From Caulobacter sp. UNC358MFTsu5.1 (lineage in GTDB: Bacteria; Pseudomonadota; Alphaproteobacteria; Caulobacterales; Caulobacteraceae): DNA of 64,000 nt. The notes under the pieces were generated by a model, which had not been told where the DNA came from, ran no database searches, and saw only the letters and a program-made list of their open reading frames with translations. Below, piece after piece: positions 4,791-47,940 of the stretch. How positions within the stretch are numbered: the stretch's first letter is position 1; each line of letters starts with the position of its first letter. The stretch lies in contig NZ_JONW01000010.1 of NCBI RefSeq assembly GCF_000712075.1, positions 186,092-250,091 on the forward strand. The letters run 5' to 3'. The translations under genes and the position numbers were made by a program.

Positions 4791-5717
4791 AGGCGCCGGA
4801 CACCGTTCCGCCGTGTCCTTCAGCCGCTCGATCAGCCAGCGTCCCGCCGGACCCGGCGGTGTGTCGGCGCGATGGGCGGCGTACATGGGCATGATGTAGC
4901 CGCCGGCCGGGGCGTCGCGCATCTTCAGCTCGACCAGGTCGCCGGCGGCGATGTCGTCCTCGACCCGATCCCAGGGCATGCCGCCCCAGCCCAGGCCCGC
5001 GCGCAGGAAGGCGTGCTTGGCGCCCATGTCGGCCAGCCGCCAGGTGCGGGCCGAGAACACCCCGAACTCCCGGCCTTCTGTCAGCTTCGAACGGTCGGTC
5101 AGCACCAGCTGGATGTGACCCGCCACGTCCTCGGGGCTCAGCGGGCCGGGCAGGGCGGCCAGGGGATGGCCGGCGGCGGCCACCTGCACCATGCGCAGCG
5201 AGATCAGCCGCTCGCGCGTCAGTTCCGGCGGCGCGTCGGGCAGCGAGCCCATCACGCCGAAGGCGCAGCGGCCGTCCAGCACGGGCGCCAGCACCGCGCC
5301 CAGGGCCTCGACATGGATGCGCAACGTGGTGTCGGGGAAGTGGTGCTGGAAGTCGCCGATGGCGTGGGTCAGCACCACCATCGGGAACAGCACGTCGACC
5401 ACGATCGAGACCTCGGGCTCCAGCCCTCCGGCCAGGCTGGCGGCGCGGGCCTTGAAGGCGTCCATGCGCCCGGCCACCTCGCGCGCCTCGACCAGCAGCG
5501 CCCGGCCGGCCTCGGTCAGGACGGGTAGGCGGGCGGCGCGGTCGAACAGCCGCACGCCGATCTGGCCCTCGAGGTTGGCCAGGGTCTGGCTGACCACCGA
5601 CTGGGCCCGGCCCAGCCTGCGTCCGGCCGCCGAGAAGCTGCCCTCGTCGGCGGCGGCCAGGAAGGTGCGCATCTGGTCGAGGGTGACGCCGTCCAACATC
5701 GATCGATCCTCATCCAT
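4788..5717 (-). CDS. LysR-family transcriptional regulator
   Basis: This 309-residue protein has an N-terminal winged helix-turn-helix (LDQMRTFLAAADEGSFSAAG, then LGRAQSVVSQTLANLE, residues about 12-55) and a LysR effector-binding domain. It is divergent from azoR with a 103-base gap holding a T-N11-A palindrome, so it most likely controls azoR and itself. The start at 5717 leaves a short MDEDRS leader; Met7 (5699) is an alternative. The effector is not predictable; quinone or azo-type electrophiles would fit the neighbour. Confidence 0.9.
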   Translation of the reverse strand: MDEDRSMLDGVTLDQMRTFLAAADEGSFSAAGRRLGRAQSVVSQTLANLEGQIGVRLFDRAARLPVLTEAGRALLVEAREVAGRMDAFKARAASLAGGLEPEVSIVVDVLFPMVVLTHAIGDFQHHFPDTTLRIHVEALGAVLAPVLDGRCAFGVMGSLPDAPPELTRERLISLRMVQVAAAGHPLAALPGPLSPEDVAGHIQLVLTDRSKLTEGREFGVFSARTWRLADMGAKHAFLRAGLGWGGMPWDRVEDDIAAGDLVELKMRDAPAGGYIMPMYAAHRADTPPGPAGRWLIERLKDTAERCPAP

Positions 5718-43008: not shown

Positions 43009-45171
43009 TCAGGTGTTCCAGAATTCCAGGAAGCCCCAGGCGCCCAGCAGCAGGGTGAAGCCCAGGAAGATCAGGGTCGTGCAGGTGAAGGCCAGCTTGC
43101 GCAGCGAGGTCCAGCTGTCGACCCGCCGGCCGCCGCGCCACACCACCGGCAGCATGGCCAGGGTGGCGATGGTCAGCCAGGCGGAGACGAAGGCGCAGGC
43201 CGAGGCGCTGAGCAGCCACCCGCTGGGCCAGCCATAGACCACGTTGGCCACGTCGGACGCCCCGCCGGCGAACACGCCCACGCCGATCAGGGCGATCAGC
43301 CACAGGATGGACTGGATGGTCTGCATCAGGCTGGCGCGGGCCTGGGTCGGGGTCTGGCGCGCCTCGCGGCGGTCCCGGGTGGCCACGCCGATCAGGGTGG
43401 CCACGGCCGCCAGGGCGGTCAGCACGGCGAAGGCGATAAGCAGGCCCAGCTGGTGCGGGAAGCCGATGCGCTCGAACGCCGCGCCGCCCATCGGCGAGAA
43501 GAAGCGCACGACCTTGCCGTCGTCGCGCTGGAACACCAGCAGGCCGGGACCGCTGACCGGGGCGAAGGTGTCGGGCTGGCCGGTCGCCGTCCATTGGCTG
43601 GACTGGCCGTCGATCGTCAGGGTCAGGCGGCCGTCCGGCGCGGCGCGCACCGAGGCCTCGCCGATCAGGCGGTCGATGAAGCCCTCCAGCCCGCCGTACG
43701 AGCGGCGCGTGGTCAGGAACCGACCCTCATAGGCGCGGGCCTCGTCGTGCGAGATCGGGCTGGCGGCGGGGATGTCCGGGCGCGGGGCGTAGAAGCGCTC
43801 GATGATCGTCGCGGGCAGGGTGGCGGGCAGGTCGGCGCCGGTGTCGGTGTTGACCGCCACGAAGACGCCCAAGCCCAGCTCGGGAACCATGACCATGTTG
43901 GAGTGGAACCACAGGGTGGCGCCGGCGTGGCCGAAGCCGCGCTTGCCGCCGGGCAGGGGGATGTCCATGAAGCCGGCGTTCCAGCCGGGCGCGCCCTCGG
44001 CCGGGCGGTACATCGGCGTGCGGAACAGGGCGCTGGTCTTGGGCGAGAAGACCGTCTTGCCGTCGATCGTCCCGCCGTTCAGCAGCAGGGTCATGTAGCG
44101 GGCCATGTCGCCGGCCGTGCTGGACGCGGCGCCGGCGGGCGCGATGTGGCCGATGAACTCGGGATCCTCGGTCTGGAAACCCAGCGGGGTCCAGCGGAAG
44201 CCGTCCGAAAGGTCGGCGGCCAGGTTCGCGGCCATTGGGGGCGGCAGGTCGTCACGCCACGGACGGTTCTCGCGGAAGGTGGTGTGGGTCAGGCCGGCGG
44301 GCAGGATCACCTGGTCGGCGACCTCCTTCTCGAACGGCTGGCCGGTGACGTTGGCCAGAGCCGCGCCGGCCAGGCCGACGCCGTAGTTCGAATAGGCCGG
44401 CAGCAGGCCCGGCTCGCGCACGCGGTTGGGGCGCTCCTGGCGCAGGTACAGCTCCAGGGGCCGTTCGCGGCGCGGGTCGCGCTCGAACAGCTGGCCCAGG
44501 GCCCGGTCCTCGAACCCGGCGGTGTGGGTCATCAGGTCGCGCAGTCGCACCGGGGTCTTCTTGCCCTGGTCCTTCAGCTGCAGCTTCTCGGGCAGGTAGA
44601 TGTTGATCGGGGTGTCCAGGCGCATGCGCCCGGCGTCCACCTCGTTCATCAGGGCGATCCAGGTGAAGGTCTTGGAGATCGAGCCGATGCGGAACAAGGT
44701 CTTGTCGGGATCGACCTTGCGGCCGTCCTTCAGGCTGGCCACGCCGTAGCCCTTCTTCAGCACCACCTGGCCGTTCTGGACAACGGCGATGGTCACGCCG
44801 GCGATGTGGTCGCGGACCATGCGGTCGCGCACGACGCCGTCGACATAGGATTCCAGGTCGGCGACCGGCAGGGGGGCGTGGCTGGTCAGGACCGGCGGCG
44901 CAGCGGCGTCGGGCGTCGCGGCCGCGGCGGTCGGGGACGCGGGCGTCGCGGCGGGCGTCACCGCGGCCGGAGCGGCGGCGCGCGGACGCGGCGCGCGGCG
45001 GCGGACGGTGGCCGTATAGGGGACCGGGGCCGAGGGCAGGTTGGCGGCCGGCGCCGACGGCGGCGGCGCAATGGGCGCGGCGTCCTGGGTCTCGGCCATC
45101 GTCGCGCCGAACAGACCGCAGCCGATGATCGCCGCCGAAAGAACGGCCCTGAACGAAAGACGCAGCGTCAC
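43009..45171 (-). CDS. Membrane-anchored serine hydrolase, beta-lactamase family
   Basis: This 720-residue protein has a signal peptide (RLSFRAVLSAAIIGCGLFG) and an Ala/Pro-rich linker, then a class C beta-lactamase/PBP domain with Ser164 and Lys167 of SISK, YSN in LPAYSNYGVG and GHAG as the third motif. An insert with a beta-rich domain follows, and the last 170 residues hold five likely membrane helices. It would act on periplasmic substrates while tethered to the inner membrane. GTG 45171 is preferred over TTG 45177 because GAGG lies 8 bases upstream. Confidence 0.88.
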   Translation of the reverse strand: MTLRLSFRAVLSAAIIGCGLFGATMAETQDAAPIAPPPSAPAANLPSAPVPYTATVRRRAPRPRAAAPAAVTPAATPASPTAAAATPDAAAPPVLTSHAPLPVADLESYVDGVVRDRMVRDHIAGVTIAVVQNGQVVLKKGYGVASLKDGRKVDPDKTLFRIGSISKTFTWIALMNEVDAGRMRLDTPINIYLPEKLQLKDQGKKTPVRLRDLMTHTAGFEDRALGQLFERDPRRERPLELYLRQERPNRVREPGLLPAYSNYGVGLAGAALANVTGQPFEKEVADQVILPAGLTHTTFRENRPWRDDLPPPMAANLAADLSDGFRWTPLGFQTEDPEFIGHIAPAGAASSTAGDMARYMTLLLNGGTIDGKTVFSPKTSALFRTPMYRPAEGAPGWNAGFMDIPLPGGKRGFGHAGATLWFHSNMVMVPELGLGVFVAVNTDTGADLPATLPATIIERFYAPRPDIPAASPISHDEARAYEGRFLTTRRSYGGLEGFIDRLIGEASVRAAPDGRLTLTIDGQSSQWTATGQPDTFAPVSGPGLLVFQRDDGKVVRFFSPMGGAAFERIGFPHQLGLLIAFAVLTALAAVATLIGVATRDRREARQTPTQARASLMQTIQSILWLIALIGVGVFAGGASDVANVVYGWPSGWLLSASACAFVSAWLTIATLAMLPVVWRGGRRVDSWTSLRKLAFTCTTLIFLGFTLLLGAWGFLEFWNT

Positions 45172-45321
45172 GAACAAGACCTCGTCGGCTCATGGAAAAT
45201 AAGGGTGAGCAGACTTCTAGGGTGTTCCGGCCGGGGATCAAAGGGTCTGTGGCCGGCCTTGGGCGCTTTCCCGTGGACGCTTGATCCTTCGGCAATGACC
45301 GAAAAGGCGTCCTCTCGGGCG

Positions 45322-45810
45322 CTAGAGCGTGGCGACGGCCTGCGAGGCCGCGTCGGGGCTGTAGAACCGGCACAAGCCCGAGGCCGGATCGGAGAAGGTT
45401 GTCACGGCCGCGTAGGGAACCGAGACGCGTTCCGGGCGACCTTTGAAGCTTAGGGTCACCTCGAATCGGGACTTGCCAAGTGAGAGGTCCCGGTACTGGT
45501 ACTGGAGGATCACCGTCATCTCGTCGGGATACTGGGCGGCCAGATAGGCGGGGAGGGAAACACCCGGAACCGCCGTCTTGAAGGTGATGTTGAGCGCGTG
45601 CGGTTCGGGCAATCCGCCGGGGGCCGCCGCGTAAGTCAACGCGCTCCGCAAGGCGTTGCCCATGTCCGCCCGGGTCGTGGCTTCGCAGGCTAGGGACGGC
45701 TCGGAAGGACCATCCTGGGCGTGCGCGGATTGTCCTACGGCGTGGGCCAGGGACAAGAGGCCGGTCAGTACCGCCAGGCCAATGCCCTTGAACGGAGAAT
45801 GCGTCGCCAA
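45322..45810 (-). CDS. Exported SspB-fold paralogue
   Basis: This 162-residue protein starts with a signal peptide (IGLAVLTGLLSLAHAVGQSAHA, predicted cut before QDGP). Its mature part matches cytoplasmic SspB at 47183-47668: over an 82-residue gapless stretch beginning AAAPGGLPEPH, 54 positions are identical by hand count. It lacks the acidic linker and the ClpX-binding tail ending SLDQFRKK. It carries two cysteines absent from SspB (SLACEA and SGLCRF), able to form a disulfide. It cannot act as a normal ClpXP tether if exported. TTG 45810 is the only suitable start, with GGGGG six bases upstream. Confidence 0.8.
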   Translation of the reverse strand: MATHSPFKGIGLAVLTGLLSLAHAVGQSAHAQDGPSEPSLACEATTRADMGNALRSALTYAAAPGGLPEPHALNITFKTAVPGVSLPAYLAAQYPDEMTVILQYQYRDLSLGKSRFEVTLSFKGRPERVSVPYAAVTTFSDPASGLCRFYSPDAASQAVATL

Positions 45811-45908
45811 ACCAAGCCCCCGTCCCTAATCAACCTCCGATGATCGTAGAGGCCGACGGTGTCGGAGGGAAGGGTCCGGTCAAGCTACGTGTCAACCAGG
45901 CGGCGGCG

Positions 45909-46685
45909 TTAGCGCGAGGGGGCGCGGGGGAACGCATACAGCGGCAGCAGCGGCCGCAGGCCGGCGCCGATCCACAGCTGGGGTTCGGAGGCCGGCTTGG
46001 CCCCGGTGTCGCGCTCGCGCCGGGCCACGCAGGCCTGCACCGCCCGGCCCAGGGCCGCGAAGTCGCGGGCGGTCGGGGCGGACGACAGGAAGCAGTCGTC
46101 GAAATAGGGGTACTTGTCGTCCTCGCTGCAGCCGAACGAGGTGCGGTCCGACCGCGCCGCCGTCAGGATCATCCGGTCGTCGCGCTGCAGGGGACGGACG
46201 AAGACGCCCGAGAAGCAGGCCGACACCACCACGATCGAGGGGCGCGCCGGGCAGGCGTCGTCGATCACCGCGGCCAGCAGGCTGGGCGGCAGGATGTCCT
46301 CGTCCAGCACCGCGCCCTCGGGCGCGCCGTGGCTGGTGAGGTAGAACAGGCAGCCGGCGGTGTTCTTGGCCGCCAGGGCGCTCAGATCGGCGTGGATGGC
46401 GCGCAGGTCGGTCTTGCCCGGCTTCACGGCGGGGTAGCGCTGGGGGCGCACGGAGTACTGGCGAATGGCGTCCGGCGAGAAGCCCAGGCCGGCCAGGGTG
46501 GCGCCGACGTCGCGGCGGGCGTTGTCGAAGGCCTCGGTGGGGGCGCCGGAATGGGCGTGCCAGTCGCCGGCCACGACCACGGCCGCCCAGTTGGCGAAGG
46601 GCGGAGCGGTCCGCGCCTGGGCGGACGCGGACAGCGCGAACAGCGACAGAAGCAAACCCAGGACCAGGCTCGCGAACCGCCGCAT
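45909..46685 (-). CDS. Secreted C13-like cysteine peptidase
   Basis: This 258-residue protein has a signal peptide (RRFASLVLGLLLSLFALSASAQA) and the caspase/legumain-clan layout: a strand ending WAAVVVAGD, the catalytic His119 in YLTSHGAPEG and Cys157 in VVSACFSGVFV. That His-Gly spacer Ala-Cys pair is the C13 hallmark. It is expected to be periplasmic. It begins 7 bases after the thioesterase and ends 98 bases before the SspB paralogue, all on one strand. Substrate unknown; Asn/Asp specificity is only a family expectation. Confidence 0.85.
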   Translation of the reverse strand: MRRFASLVLGLLLSLFALSASAQARTAPPFANWAAVVVAGDWHAHSGAPTEAFDNARRDVGATLAGLGFSPDAIRQYSVRPQRYPAVKPGKTDLRAIHADLSALAAKNTAGCLFYLTSHGAPEGAVLDEDILPPSLLAAVIDDACPARPSIVVVSACFSGVFVRPLQRDDRMILTAARSDRTSFGCSEDDKYPYFDDCFLSSAPTARDFAALGRAVQACVARRERDTGAKPASEPQLWIGAGLRPLLPLYAFPRAPSR

Positions 46686-47182: not shown

Positions 47183-47668
47183 CTATTTCTTGCGGAACTG
47201 GTCGAGGGAGATGATCTTCGGCGCTTCCTCGCCGCCCTCGGTGGTCGCGACCACTTCGGGTTCCGGGTCCGGCTCGGGCTCCTGCGGCACGATCTCGGGG
47301 GCCTCGAACTGCAGGGCGAACTGCACCGACGGGTCGTAGAACCGGGTCACCGCCGCATAGGGGATCGACAGCCGCTTGGGCTGGCCGCCGAACTTCAGGG
47401 TGACCGAGAAGAAGGTCTCGCCCGGCGCCAGGTCCCAGTACTGGTGCTGCAGGATGATGGTCATCTCGTCGGGATACTTGCCCAGCAGGTCCTGGGGACC
47501 GGAGACGCCCGCCGCCTGGGTCTTGAAGGTGATGTAGAGGTGGTGCGGTTCGGGCAGGCCGCCGGGCGCGGCGGCCTTCTTCAACGCGGCCTTCACGACG
47601 CCGCGCAGGGCGTCCTGGGCCATCGCCTCGTACTGCATCAGGTCTTCAGGCGGATTGGTCTGGGCCAT
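47183..47668 (-). CDS. sspB: SspB-alpha, ClpXP adaptor for ssrA-tagged proteins
   Basis: This 161-residue cytoplasmic protein matches alphaproteobacterial SspB: core GGLPEPHHLYITFKTQAAGV, then YPDEMTIILQHQYWDL and PKRLSIPYAAVTRFYDP, an acidic Pro/Glu linker, and the C-terminal ISLDQFRKK that docks on ClpX. SspB delivers ssrA-tagged substrates to ClpXP. ATG 47668 is chosen; ATG 47677 would add three residues. It lies directly downstream of ssrA on the same strand, tying the adaptor to the tag gene. Confidence 0.93.
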   Translation of the reverse strand: MAQTNPPEDLMQYEAMAQDALRGVVKAALKKAAAPGGLPEPHHLYITFKTQAAGVSGPQDLLGKYPDEMTIILQHQYWDLAPGETFFSVTLKFGGQPKRLSIPYAAVTRFYDPSVQFALQFEAPEIVPQEPEPDPEPEVVATTEGGEEAPKIISLDQFRKK

Positions 47669-47836
47669 GCGGTCCATCGTAAAGCGAGAACTGGAACGAA
47701 GCGCGCAGATTAGCCTGTCGCGGGGGCGGCGAGAAGGTGGGGGGAGTGGCGAATTTCGAAGAAAGAGGAGGTCGGCGCTGGCCCCCTCCGTCACGGCGCT
47801 TCGCGCCGCGCCACCTCCCCCGCTTCGCGAGGGAGG

Positions 47837-47940
47837 AAGTGGAGGGATTCTGTTGGCAGGCTCCCGCATCCCTTCGCAAGGAAGAGGAGGGAGCCTCGGC
47901 GATGTCGTGGAAAGTGGAGGGATTCTGTTGGCAGGCTCCC
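47837..47940. repeat. 29-base direct repeat between ssrA and sspB
   Basis: AAGTGGAGGGATTCTGTTGG and the nine following bases occur identically at 47837-47865 and 47912-47940, 75 bases apart. The surrounding stretch (47700-47900) is rich in CCTCCC/GGGAGG blocks like other intergenic repeats here and has no coding gene. Confidence 0.85.

Follow-up and report, generated by a model that had tools for sequence, protein, structure and literature searches.

The window, a 64,000-nucleotide stretch of Caulobacter DNA, encodes besides a canonical SspB a second protein of the SspB family that lacks the ClpX-docking tail, carries two cysteines and begins with a probable signal peptide, and genes of the same design recur in a second alphaproteobacterial family. 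We consider it rather likely that this second protein, called the exported-type protein below for its predicted export, is a disulfide-stabilised periplasmic SspB-fold protein that is uncoupled from ClpXP and probably binds extended peptides. SspB is a textbook adaptor of the cytoplasm and serves widely in the laboratory as a peptide-binding module, and ClpXP is a cytoplasmic protease. In relatives of the exported-type protein this small domain binds extended peptides.

The exported-type gene and the canonical SspB gene

The exported-type protein matches the Pfam SspB family (PF04386) over residues 53–154 (E 3.2e-26), and its score of 92.6 bits exceeds the curated cut-off of 27. The whole genome (5.4 Mb, listed as 100% complete) holds two PF04386 matches, this protein and the canonical SspB, whose true start is probably at 47668 (MAQTNPPED). 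From the stop codon of the canonical gene, 1373 bp lead to the start of the exported-type frame, and the cores of the two proteins are identical at 54 of 82 positions, exactly the figure given in a preliminary description of this DNA, which had placed the canonical gene about 1.4 kb away. A search of the PDB sequences with the exported-type protein places 2qas and 2qaz, structures of Caulobacter crescentus SspB, at the top (E 2.3e-33). No NCBIfam model reaches its cut-off for the exported-type protein, the canonical SspB of the window, four of the genes from the second family (f171) or the G672 protein described below; the best SspB model scores 16.6 bits against a cut-off of 162.

The ClpX-docking motif of alphaproteobacterial SspB is of the LDxFRKK type, and a tail with LDxFRK is found in 45 of 45 canonical SspBs (alignment A1). 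The exported-type protein ends in ...SPDAASQAVATL, with neither an acidic linker nor an LDxFRKK tail, as the preliminary description had also observed; its terminus (...AASQAVATL) lies 57 residues past its QYQ motif. The features of the locus are collected in Table 1.

Table 1. Features of the exported-type SspB locus and its surroundings, in window coordinates.
Feature	Position	Strand	Remarks
Exported SspB-like open reading frame (predicted export)	45322..45810	-	162 aa; TTG start; stop 45322-45324
Putative signal peptide, residues 1-31	45718..45810	-	K8; h-region IGLAVLTGLLSL; AHA/QD; cleavage position inferred
Mature SspB-fold domain, 131 aa	45325..45717	-	Starts QDGPSEP; fold predicted
Cys42 codon (mature Cys11)	45685..45687	-	Tyr in 43/43 canonical SspBs covering the position
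In-frame ATG, codon 50 (mature residue 19)	45661..45663	-	Inside helix 1, ahead of the PF04386 core
Cys147 codon (mature Cys116)	45370..45372	-	Last strand, six residues past the invariant Asp
Segment missing from relatives	45281..45908	-	Delimited by aligning the spacers of relatives; flanked by the C13-like peptidase gene and by the conserved leader of the beta-lactamase-family gene; ends approximate
Canonical SspB	47183..47869	-	Acidic linker and ...ISLDQFRKK tail; PF04386 E 1.7e-39
C13/caspase-like peptidase gene	45912-46685	-	Signal-like N-terminus; 3' of sspB and thioesterase in 14/14 relatives
Beta-lactamase-family gene	43009-45177	-	722 aa; TTG-start frame; signal-like segment; adjoins the site in 14/14 relatives

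Export signal and start codon

The first 31 residues, LATHSPFKGIGLAVLTGLLSLAHAVGQSAHA, combine a lysine with a hydrophobic run free of charges and an AHA/QD motif, and so resemble the n-, h- and c-regions of a signal peptide with small residues at −3 and −1, as judged by a rule of our own alone. This rule asks for a net basic n-region, an uncharged 12-mer with a mean Kyte-Doolittle hydropathy of at least 2.2, and small residues at −3 and −1. When codons 1–49 were shuffled 20,000 times with dinucleotides preserved, 7264 of the shuffles were free of stops and one of these passed; shuffling the codons instead gave 28 passes in 20,000. Seven of the 208 window frames of at least 100 aa pass the rule, the exported-type frame included, and among in-frame stretches 5′ of canonical sspB starts one of 48, at a Bartonella locus, reaches the hydropathy threshold. 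The signal peptide that the preliminary description had seen on an SspB core is beyond chance by this rule, and we regard the N-terminus as a probable signal peptide and predict that the protein is exported. Inspection found no twin arginine for export through Tat and no lipobox for a lipoprotein, Cys42 lying within SLAC well beyond the h-region.

Base composition bears on where translation begins. The third-position GC content is 0.755 in codons 1–49 and 0.841 in codons 50–162, against 0.419 in the 31 codons upstream, which speaks for translation from the TTG. Over the whole gene it is 0.815, compared with 0.89–0.96 in the neighbouring genes. The codon usage of the gene is poorly adapted, with scores of −0.22 for codons 1–49, the worst part of the gene, and 0.09 for the core, set against 0.42–0.73 for the neighbours and −1.21 upstream of the TTG. 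The preliminary description had named a start codon downstream of the signal segment as a point that would count against export; such a codon does exist, the ATG at codon 50, yet a start there would cost the protein Cys42, strand 12–14 and the first residues of helix 1 (16–31), and is disfavoured.

The mature part aligns without gaps to the canonical SspB from canonical residue 3 onwards (QDGPSEPSLACEA against QTNPPEDLMQYEA), with eight identities in the first 30 mature residues (QDGPSEP opposite QTNPPED). Since this alignment begins at the putative cleavage site, the signal peptide seems to have been placed directly before an SspB. When the genome was searched for a second copy of the 263 bases that take in the leader, the signal and the beginning of the mature part, nothing convincing came up, the best other match being 18 bases long (E 0.10).

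Predicted fold, cysteines and conserved positions

An AF2 model of the mature domain, built on the 47-sequence alignment A1, has a mean pLDDT of 84 and a pTM of 0.76. In a Foldseek comparison with the PDB, it finds 2qas_A first (E 1.2e-13, rmsd 1.2 Å, TM 0.83 by target), followed by 2qaz, 2nys and then further SspB structures, including complexes of SspB with ssrA and with RseA. A model without a peptide groove would have told against the preliminary description by its own account; the model predicts that the SspB fold is retained. A closer look shows a difference near the N-terminus. In the control model of the canonical SspB, helix 1 spans residues 13–33 and the last strand residues 117–120, while in the exported-type model a strand or bridge at 12–14, where the control has helix, precedes helix 1 at 16–31, and the last strand spans 115–119 (the mature numbering of the exported-type protein being the canonical numbering minus 2).

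The two cysteines noted in the preliminary description, Cys42 and Cys147, are indeed additions, as none of the 45 canonical SspBs has a cysteine anywhere; two of the 45 do not cover the column of Cys42. In the model these residues lie at or beside strand 12–14 and strand 115–119, from which we infer a disulfide between mature Cys11 and Cys116. The two strands would pair and so bring the cysteines together. The same genome encodes a DsbB-family gene.

Of the 28 core columns that are at least 95% conserved in canonical SspBs, the exported-type protein keeps 24, against 52 of 82 core columns overall (P 0.002); the four that are changed are H41, I69, H73 and L98. Both glutamines of the QHQ motif are kept. 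Outside the core, one of eight such columns is kept in the N-terminal part and one of four after residue 112. Residues that are invariant in all covering canonical rows and changed in the exported-type protein are D7, Y11, G21, H41, H73, F115 and F119. His41 and His73 (mature numbering) are invariant in all 45 canonical rows, and with both replaced the peptide specificity may well differ. Helix 1 forms the SspB dimer interface, and its divergence, taken with the two changed histidines, may argue for an altered specificity or oligomeric state.

The two halves of the mature protein have also evolved differently. Over the 84-codon core, the exported-type and canonical copies differ at 25 first, 16 second and 37 third codon positions (dN 0.29, dS 0.83), and this pattern, along with the retained conserved columns, shows that purifying selection has acted on the core ever since the two copies separated. 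Over the 29 mature N-terminal codons the differences are 15, 15 and 13 (dN 0.83, dS 0.74), and given the single conserved column kept there, this part, helix 1 included, has diverged unconstrained.

Genomic site, distribution and origin

In 14 relatives the gene order is sspB, thioesterase, C13-like peptidase and beta-lactamase-family gene, and the exported-type gene is absent from all 14. The gap between the peptidase and beta-lactamase-family genes, measured between match ends, is 120–175 bp in 13 of these relatives and 734 bp here; in the remaining one (L051) it is 360 bp, with the beta-lactamase match beginning late, at residue 102. The flank of the insert on the beta-lactamase side aligns with nine near relatives. 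Repeats at the insert are all short, none of them resembling the ends of an element, and a low-power scan found no promoter-like or terminator-like site there.

Among 74 other genomes of the genus, 198 of the family and 298 of the order, none gave a match scoring higher than an ordinary SspB; these sets overlap and include some incomplete genomes and a few in which not every first-look candidate was scored. The preliminary description had asked whether the signal-peptide form is a conserved orthologue group; in the organism's own order it is not, since no orthologue appears in the Caulobacterales genomes searched. In this order the gene seems confined to the genome studied here, the only one that represents the species. 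Scanning 84,980 species genomes for a sequence pattern returned 13 loci, all 13 of them ordinary tailed SspBs; the scan depends on 8 residues matching exactly, so that a diverged orthologue would escape it.

The synonymous divergence of the exported-type copy from canonical copies is high (dS 0.71–1.36, with one row saturated), compared with 0.09–0.20 between the canonical copy and seven of its nearest relatives and 0.39 to an eighth (L035). The exported-type copy is therefore either much older than its confinement to the species or very fast evolving. If it is old, either other lineages have lost it or it came from a relative outside the sample, and the third-position GC content of the gene would fit a foreign source. 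Three trees were built for this copy. Among other divergent paralogues the long branches meet and the placement is uninformative; with canonical SspBs only, the copy branches off at the root of Caulobacteraceae (80/67), and the alternative that it arose within the core clade of the genus is not rejected (p-AU 0.357). The third tree includes the f171 genes and is taken up with them below.

The phage and plasmid records searched give no support to a mobile or phage origin. In tblastn searches with the exported-type protein, one of 50,697 phage records and 12 of 72,556 plasmid records matched, each at less than 60% identity and over less than 80% of the query. An f171 protein (L102) matched six plasmid records, all below 60% identity. 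Two IMG/VR scans found no relative of the exported-type protein; a scan with alignment A3 found one locus (L134), a canonical SspB with tail. PHROGs gave no match for three proteins. Separately, the phage record MT836065.1 holds at about 5472–5705 a stretch that resembles SspB (46% identity across 78 residues); this 13-kb “Bacteriophage sp.” record, obtained from human faeces, is unannotated and possibly chromosomal contamination.

Other second copies of SspB

Second PF04386 copies within a genome are rare. Counting the genome studied here, two matches occur in 2 of 385 genomes of the class sample and 5 of 398 of the phylum sample, and with the exported-type protein as query in 2 of 75 genomes of the genus, 3 of 199 of the family and 5 of 299 of the order. 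The other class genome with two matches is G305, whose second one (18.9 bits, below the cut-off) we take to be spurious, the frame being that of a lipoamide acyltransferase by eye.

These further copies are of several kinds. G051 has two closely similar canonical SspBs, and G1099 has two ordinary-looking copies that both end in basic tails. In G047, a tail-less tandem copy directly follows sspB (L037:4169-4570, minus strand), without an evident signal peptide, and occupies the place of the thioesterase gene of the relatives. In G672, a second PF04386 protein stands behind a hydrophobic N-terminal segment and has two cysteines after it (L083:1294-1827, plus strand), and in G887 (L086) the search turned up just a C-terminal fragment of a relative, 82% identical over 33 residues. 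G746 encodes a diverged SspB-like protein with two cysteines (L082:1300-1734, plus strand) and an amphipathic N-terminus, MRWILDLLIEIAFWSVGEV, upstream of 1300-1734.

The same design in a second alphaproteobacterial family

Three genomes of family f171 (G1170, G1088 and G1104) were found to carry a second PF04386 gene with a signal-like N-terminus, an SspB core and two cysteines. A profile (A3) made from these three proteins and the exported-type protein of the window was run on 391 f171 genomes, scoring up to 9 candidates in each. At least 30 of the 391 have two A3 matches, and at least 22 carry a match of 128 bits or more, which is of the exported type (L104–L125); the next match below, at 126.6 bits, is a canonical SspB (L126). 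The frame is open in 21 of the 22, counting ten that a tool had flagged with one or two stops where the match extends past the frame's own terminal stop. The broken gene, that of G1341 (L105), has an internal stop, whereas the closely related gene of G1320 (L106) has an uninterrupted frame, so that the exported SspB may be dispensable in at least one strain. The exported type occurs in at least 18 of about 107 genomes of genus g286 and at least 4 of about 18 of genus g371, the broken gene included.

All 21 open genes have an uncharged 12-mer with a mean hydropathy of 2.07–3.47 and a start codon at most 30 residues before it; none has an LDxFRK-type tail, and each carries two cysteines in its presumed mature part. 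With the window gene included, the tail is missing and the cysteine pair present in 22 of 22 open genes read. One gene (L120) has a third cysteine, within the presumed cleavage motif. Taking the first start codon within 30 residues of the 12-mer, the net charge before it is positive in 12 of the 21, zero in six and −1 in three. The C-terminal cysteine lies six residues past the invariant aspartate in the exported-type protein of the window and in 18 of the 21. The preliminary description had looked to homologues for a hydrophobic N-terminus; the 21 open genes read from this second family all have such a stretch, and no orthologue was found in the Caulobacterales genomes searched. The f171 genes thus share the hydrophobic N-terminal stretch, the SspB core, the two mature cysteines and the absent tail with the window gene and differ from it in genomic place.

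The largest f171 group, 16 loci (L107–L122), aligns over 101 mature residues without a gap, and both cysteines are invariant. Across its 120 pairs, which are not independent of one another, the median dN/dS is 0.20 (range 0.06–0.40) at a median dS of 0.39, and the differences sum to 1318, 694 and 3023 at the three codon positions. This group is under purifying selection. The pair L123/L124 has a dN of 0.004 and a dS of 0.12, and the pair L104/L106 (dN 0.061, dS 0.125) is less constrained. Around four of the L107–L122 loci, the neighbours that recur are PRC-barrel, FAA-hydrolase and, by eye, flagellar genes, not each of them everywhere, which suggests one ancestral place for the group. Sel1-repeat and CAAX-protease-like genes are also among the neighbours of the f171 genes.

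Conservation was compared at 15 positions that are invariant in 29 canonical rows, scored in 10 exported rows. Nine of them (F46, G52, P64, M67, L78, F85, P101, F108 and D110) are kept in all 10. Y63 is kept in nine rows, L89 and F91 in eight each, P111 in four, H73 in three and F115 in one, with six gaps at this last position.

Whether the window gene and the f171 genes share an ancestor was approached through identities and trees. Over 75 core columns, the window copy has 41–44 identities to SspBs of its own genus, and 30–37 over 72–75 columns to the nine f171 exported rows compared, of 21. The best tree joins the window protein to these nine rows at 49/79, on long branches; the alternative that places it with Caulobacter SspB has a p-AU of 0.367 and is not rejected. 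Going by the identities, a local duplication followed by convergence would be the simpler account, though both may belong to one subfamily that spread horizontally.

Proposed function and alternatives

If the protein is exported, a role as ClpXP adaptor is excluded, because the docking tail is gone and the compartment is the wrong one. The favoured reading is that the product would be exported via Sec, with the signal peptide removed after AHA, and that the Cys11–Cys116 disulfide would stabilise the protein in the periplasm by linking the last strand to the residues ahead of helix 1. The SspB groove would most likely have been kept for extended, probably C-terminal, peptides of exported proteins, which it might shield or present to a periplasmic protease. 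Compared with SspB (PF04386; 2qas and 2qaz, and the complexes SspB-ssrA 1ox9 and SspB-RseA 1yfn), the protein shares the family, the predicted fold and most of the conserved core positions, and differs in the signal peptide, the two cysteines, the diverged helix 1, the replaced His41 and His73 and the absence of the acidic linker and ClpX-docking tail.

An alternative that we hold to be unlikely is that the gene is a relic private to its species, an old sspB duplicate or foreign copy that acquired a hydrophobic N-terminus by chance and has lost selection in this strain. Its confinement to one genome among those searched and its third-position GC content, below that of its neighbours, would agree with this, as would the decay of comparable second copies, seen in the internal stop of G1341 and the C-terminal fragment of G887. 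Against a relic, the 162-codon frame is intact, the differences in the core are greatest at third codon positions, the conserved core positions have been preferentially kept, drift would hardly yield the kind of cysteine pair that the f171 genes also have, and the 16 f171 genes are under purifying selection.

It is also doubtful, in our view, that the SspB fold is exported with its peptide groove disused, serving another role in the envelope such as binding one fixed protein partner. The changed histidines are in line with such a role, as is the finding that the f171 groups examined have other neighbouring genes than the window gene; the nine of 15 canonical-invariant positions that persist in all 10 exported rows compared argue against it. 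A partner that suggests itself is the adjoining C13/caspase-like peptidase, but a protease-adaptor pair is not supported, because the peptidase gene stands without an SspB copy in 14 of 14 relatives and the f171 genes have other neighbours. Least credible is a cytoplasmic decoy or anti-adaptor, made from the codon-50 start or as a retained precursor, whose tail-less core would hide ssrA tags from ClpXP: the in-frame ATG, the missing docking tail and the weak codon-usage score of codons 1–49 would allow it, but these codons have a coding-like GC3, the codon-50 start loses Cys42 and the beginning of helix 1, the signal segment passes a rule that just one of the 7264 shuffles passes, the cysteine pair suits an oxidising compartment, and the hydrophobic stretch is kept in all 21 open f171 genes.

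Beyond the favoured reading of a periplasmic peptide-binding SspB, one may picture a bolder one, which we put forward as speculation and think improbable as a whole, namely that a repeatedly arisen alphaproteobacterial periplasmic SspB is a disulfide-stabilised reader of C-terminal peptides that hands its substrates to a periplasmic tail-specific protease or shields them from it. The substrates would be exported proteins, perhaps including ssrA-tagged ones translocated before the ribosome stalled. A functional parallel is NlpI, a lipoprotein and the adaptor of the periplasmic tail-specific protease Prc, to which no relation is claimed. Periplasmic Prc of E. coli degrades Sec-exported ssrA-tagged proteins and works with the adaptor NlpI (PMC6686036), periplasmic Tsp/Prc and ssrA-tagged exported proteins are treated elsewhere as well (PMC3985003), and NlpI offers a precedent for adaptor-assisted recognition of C-termini in the periplasm (PMC5686067; PMC6686036). 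With this precedent, a periplasmic SspB that reads such C-termini is conceivable.

The preliminary description knew of no envelope SspB, and we likewise found no description of a periplasmic or signal-peptide-bearing SspB in the open-access papers searched. For Legionella, binding of SspB to the isomerase Mip is reported, but SignalP 6.0 found no cleavage site in that SspB (PMC9670971), and a list of putative secreted proteins of Pasteurella includes sspB among ribosomal proteins (PMC11578946). The putative envelope SspB is a recurrent but sporadic variant, undescribed in the open-access literature searched.

The presence of the same design in a second family suggests that a helper from the cytoplasm has found a new use in the cell envelope. 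Its recurrence is natural evidence that the peptide-binding half of SspB is separable from ClpXP and can be moved to another compartment, and it raises the question of what recognises the C-termini of proteins, tagged or damaged, once these are across the membrane. If the reading as a periplasmic C-terminal-peptide reader is true, such a protein would be the envelope counterpart of the SspB-ClpXP step.
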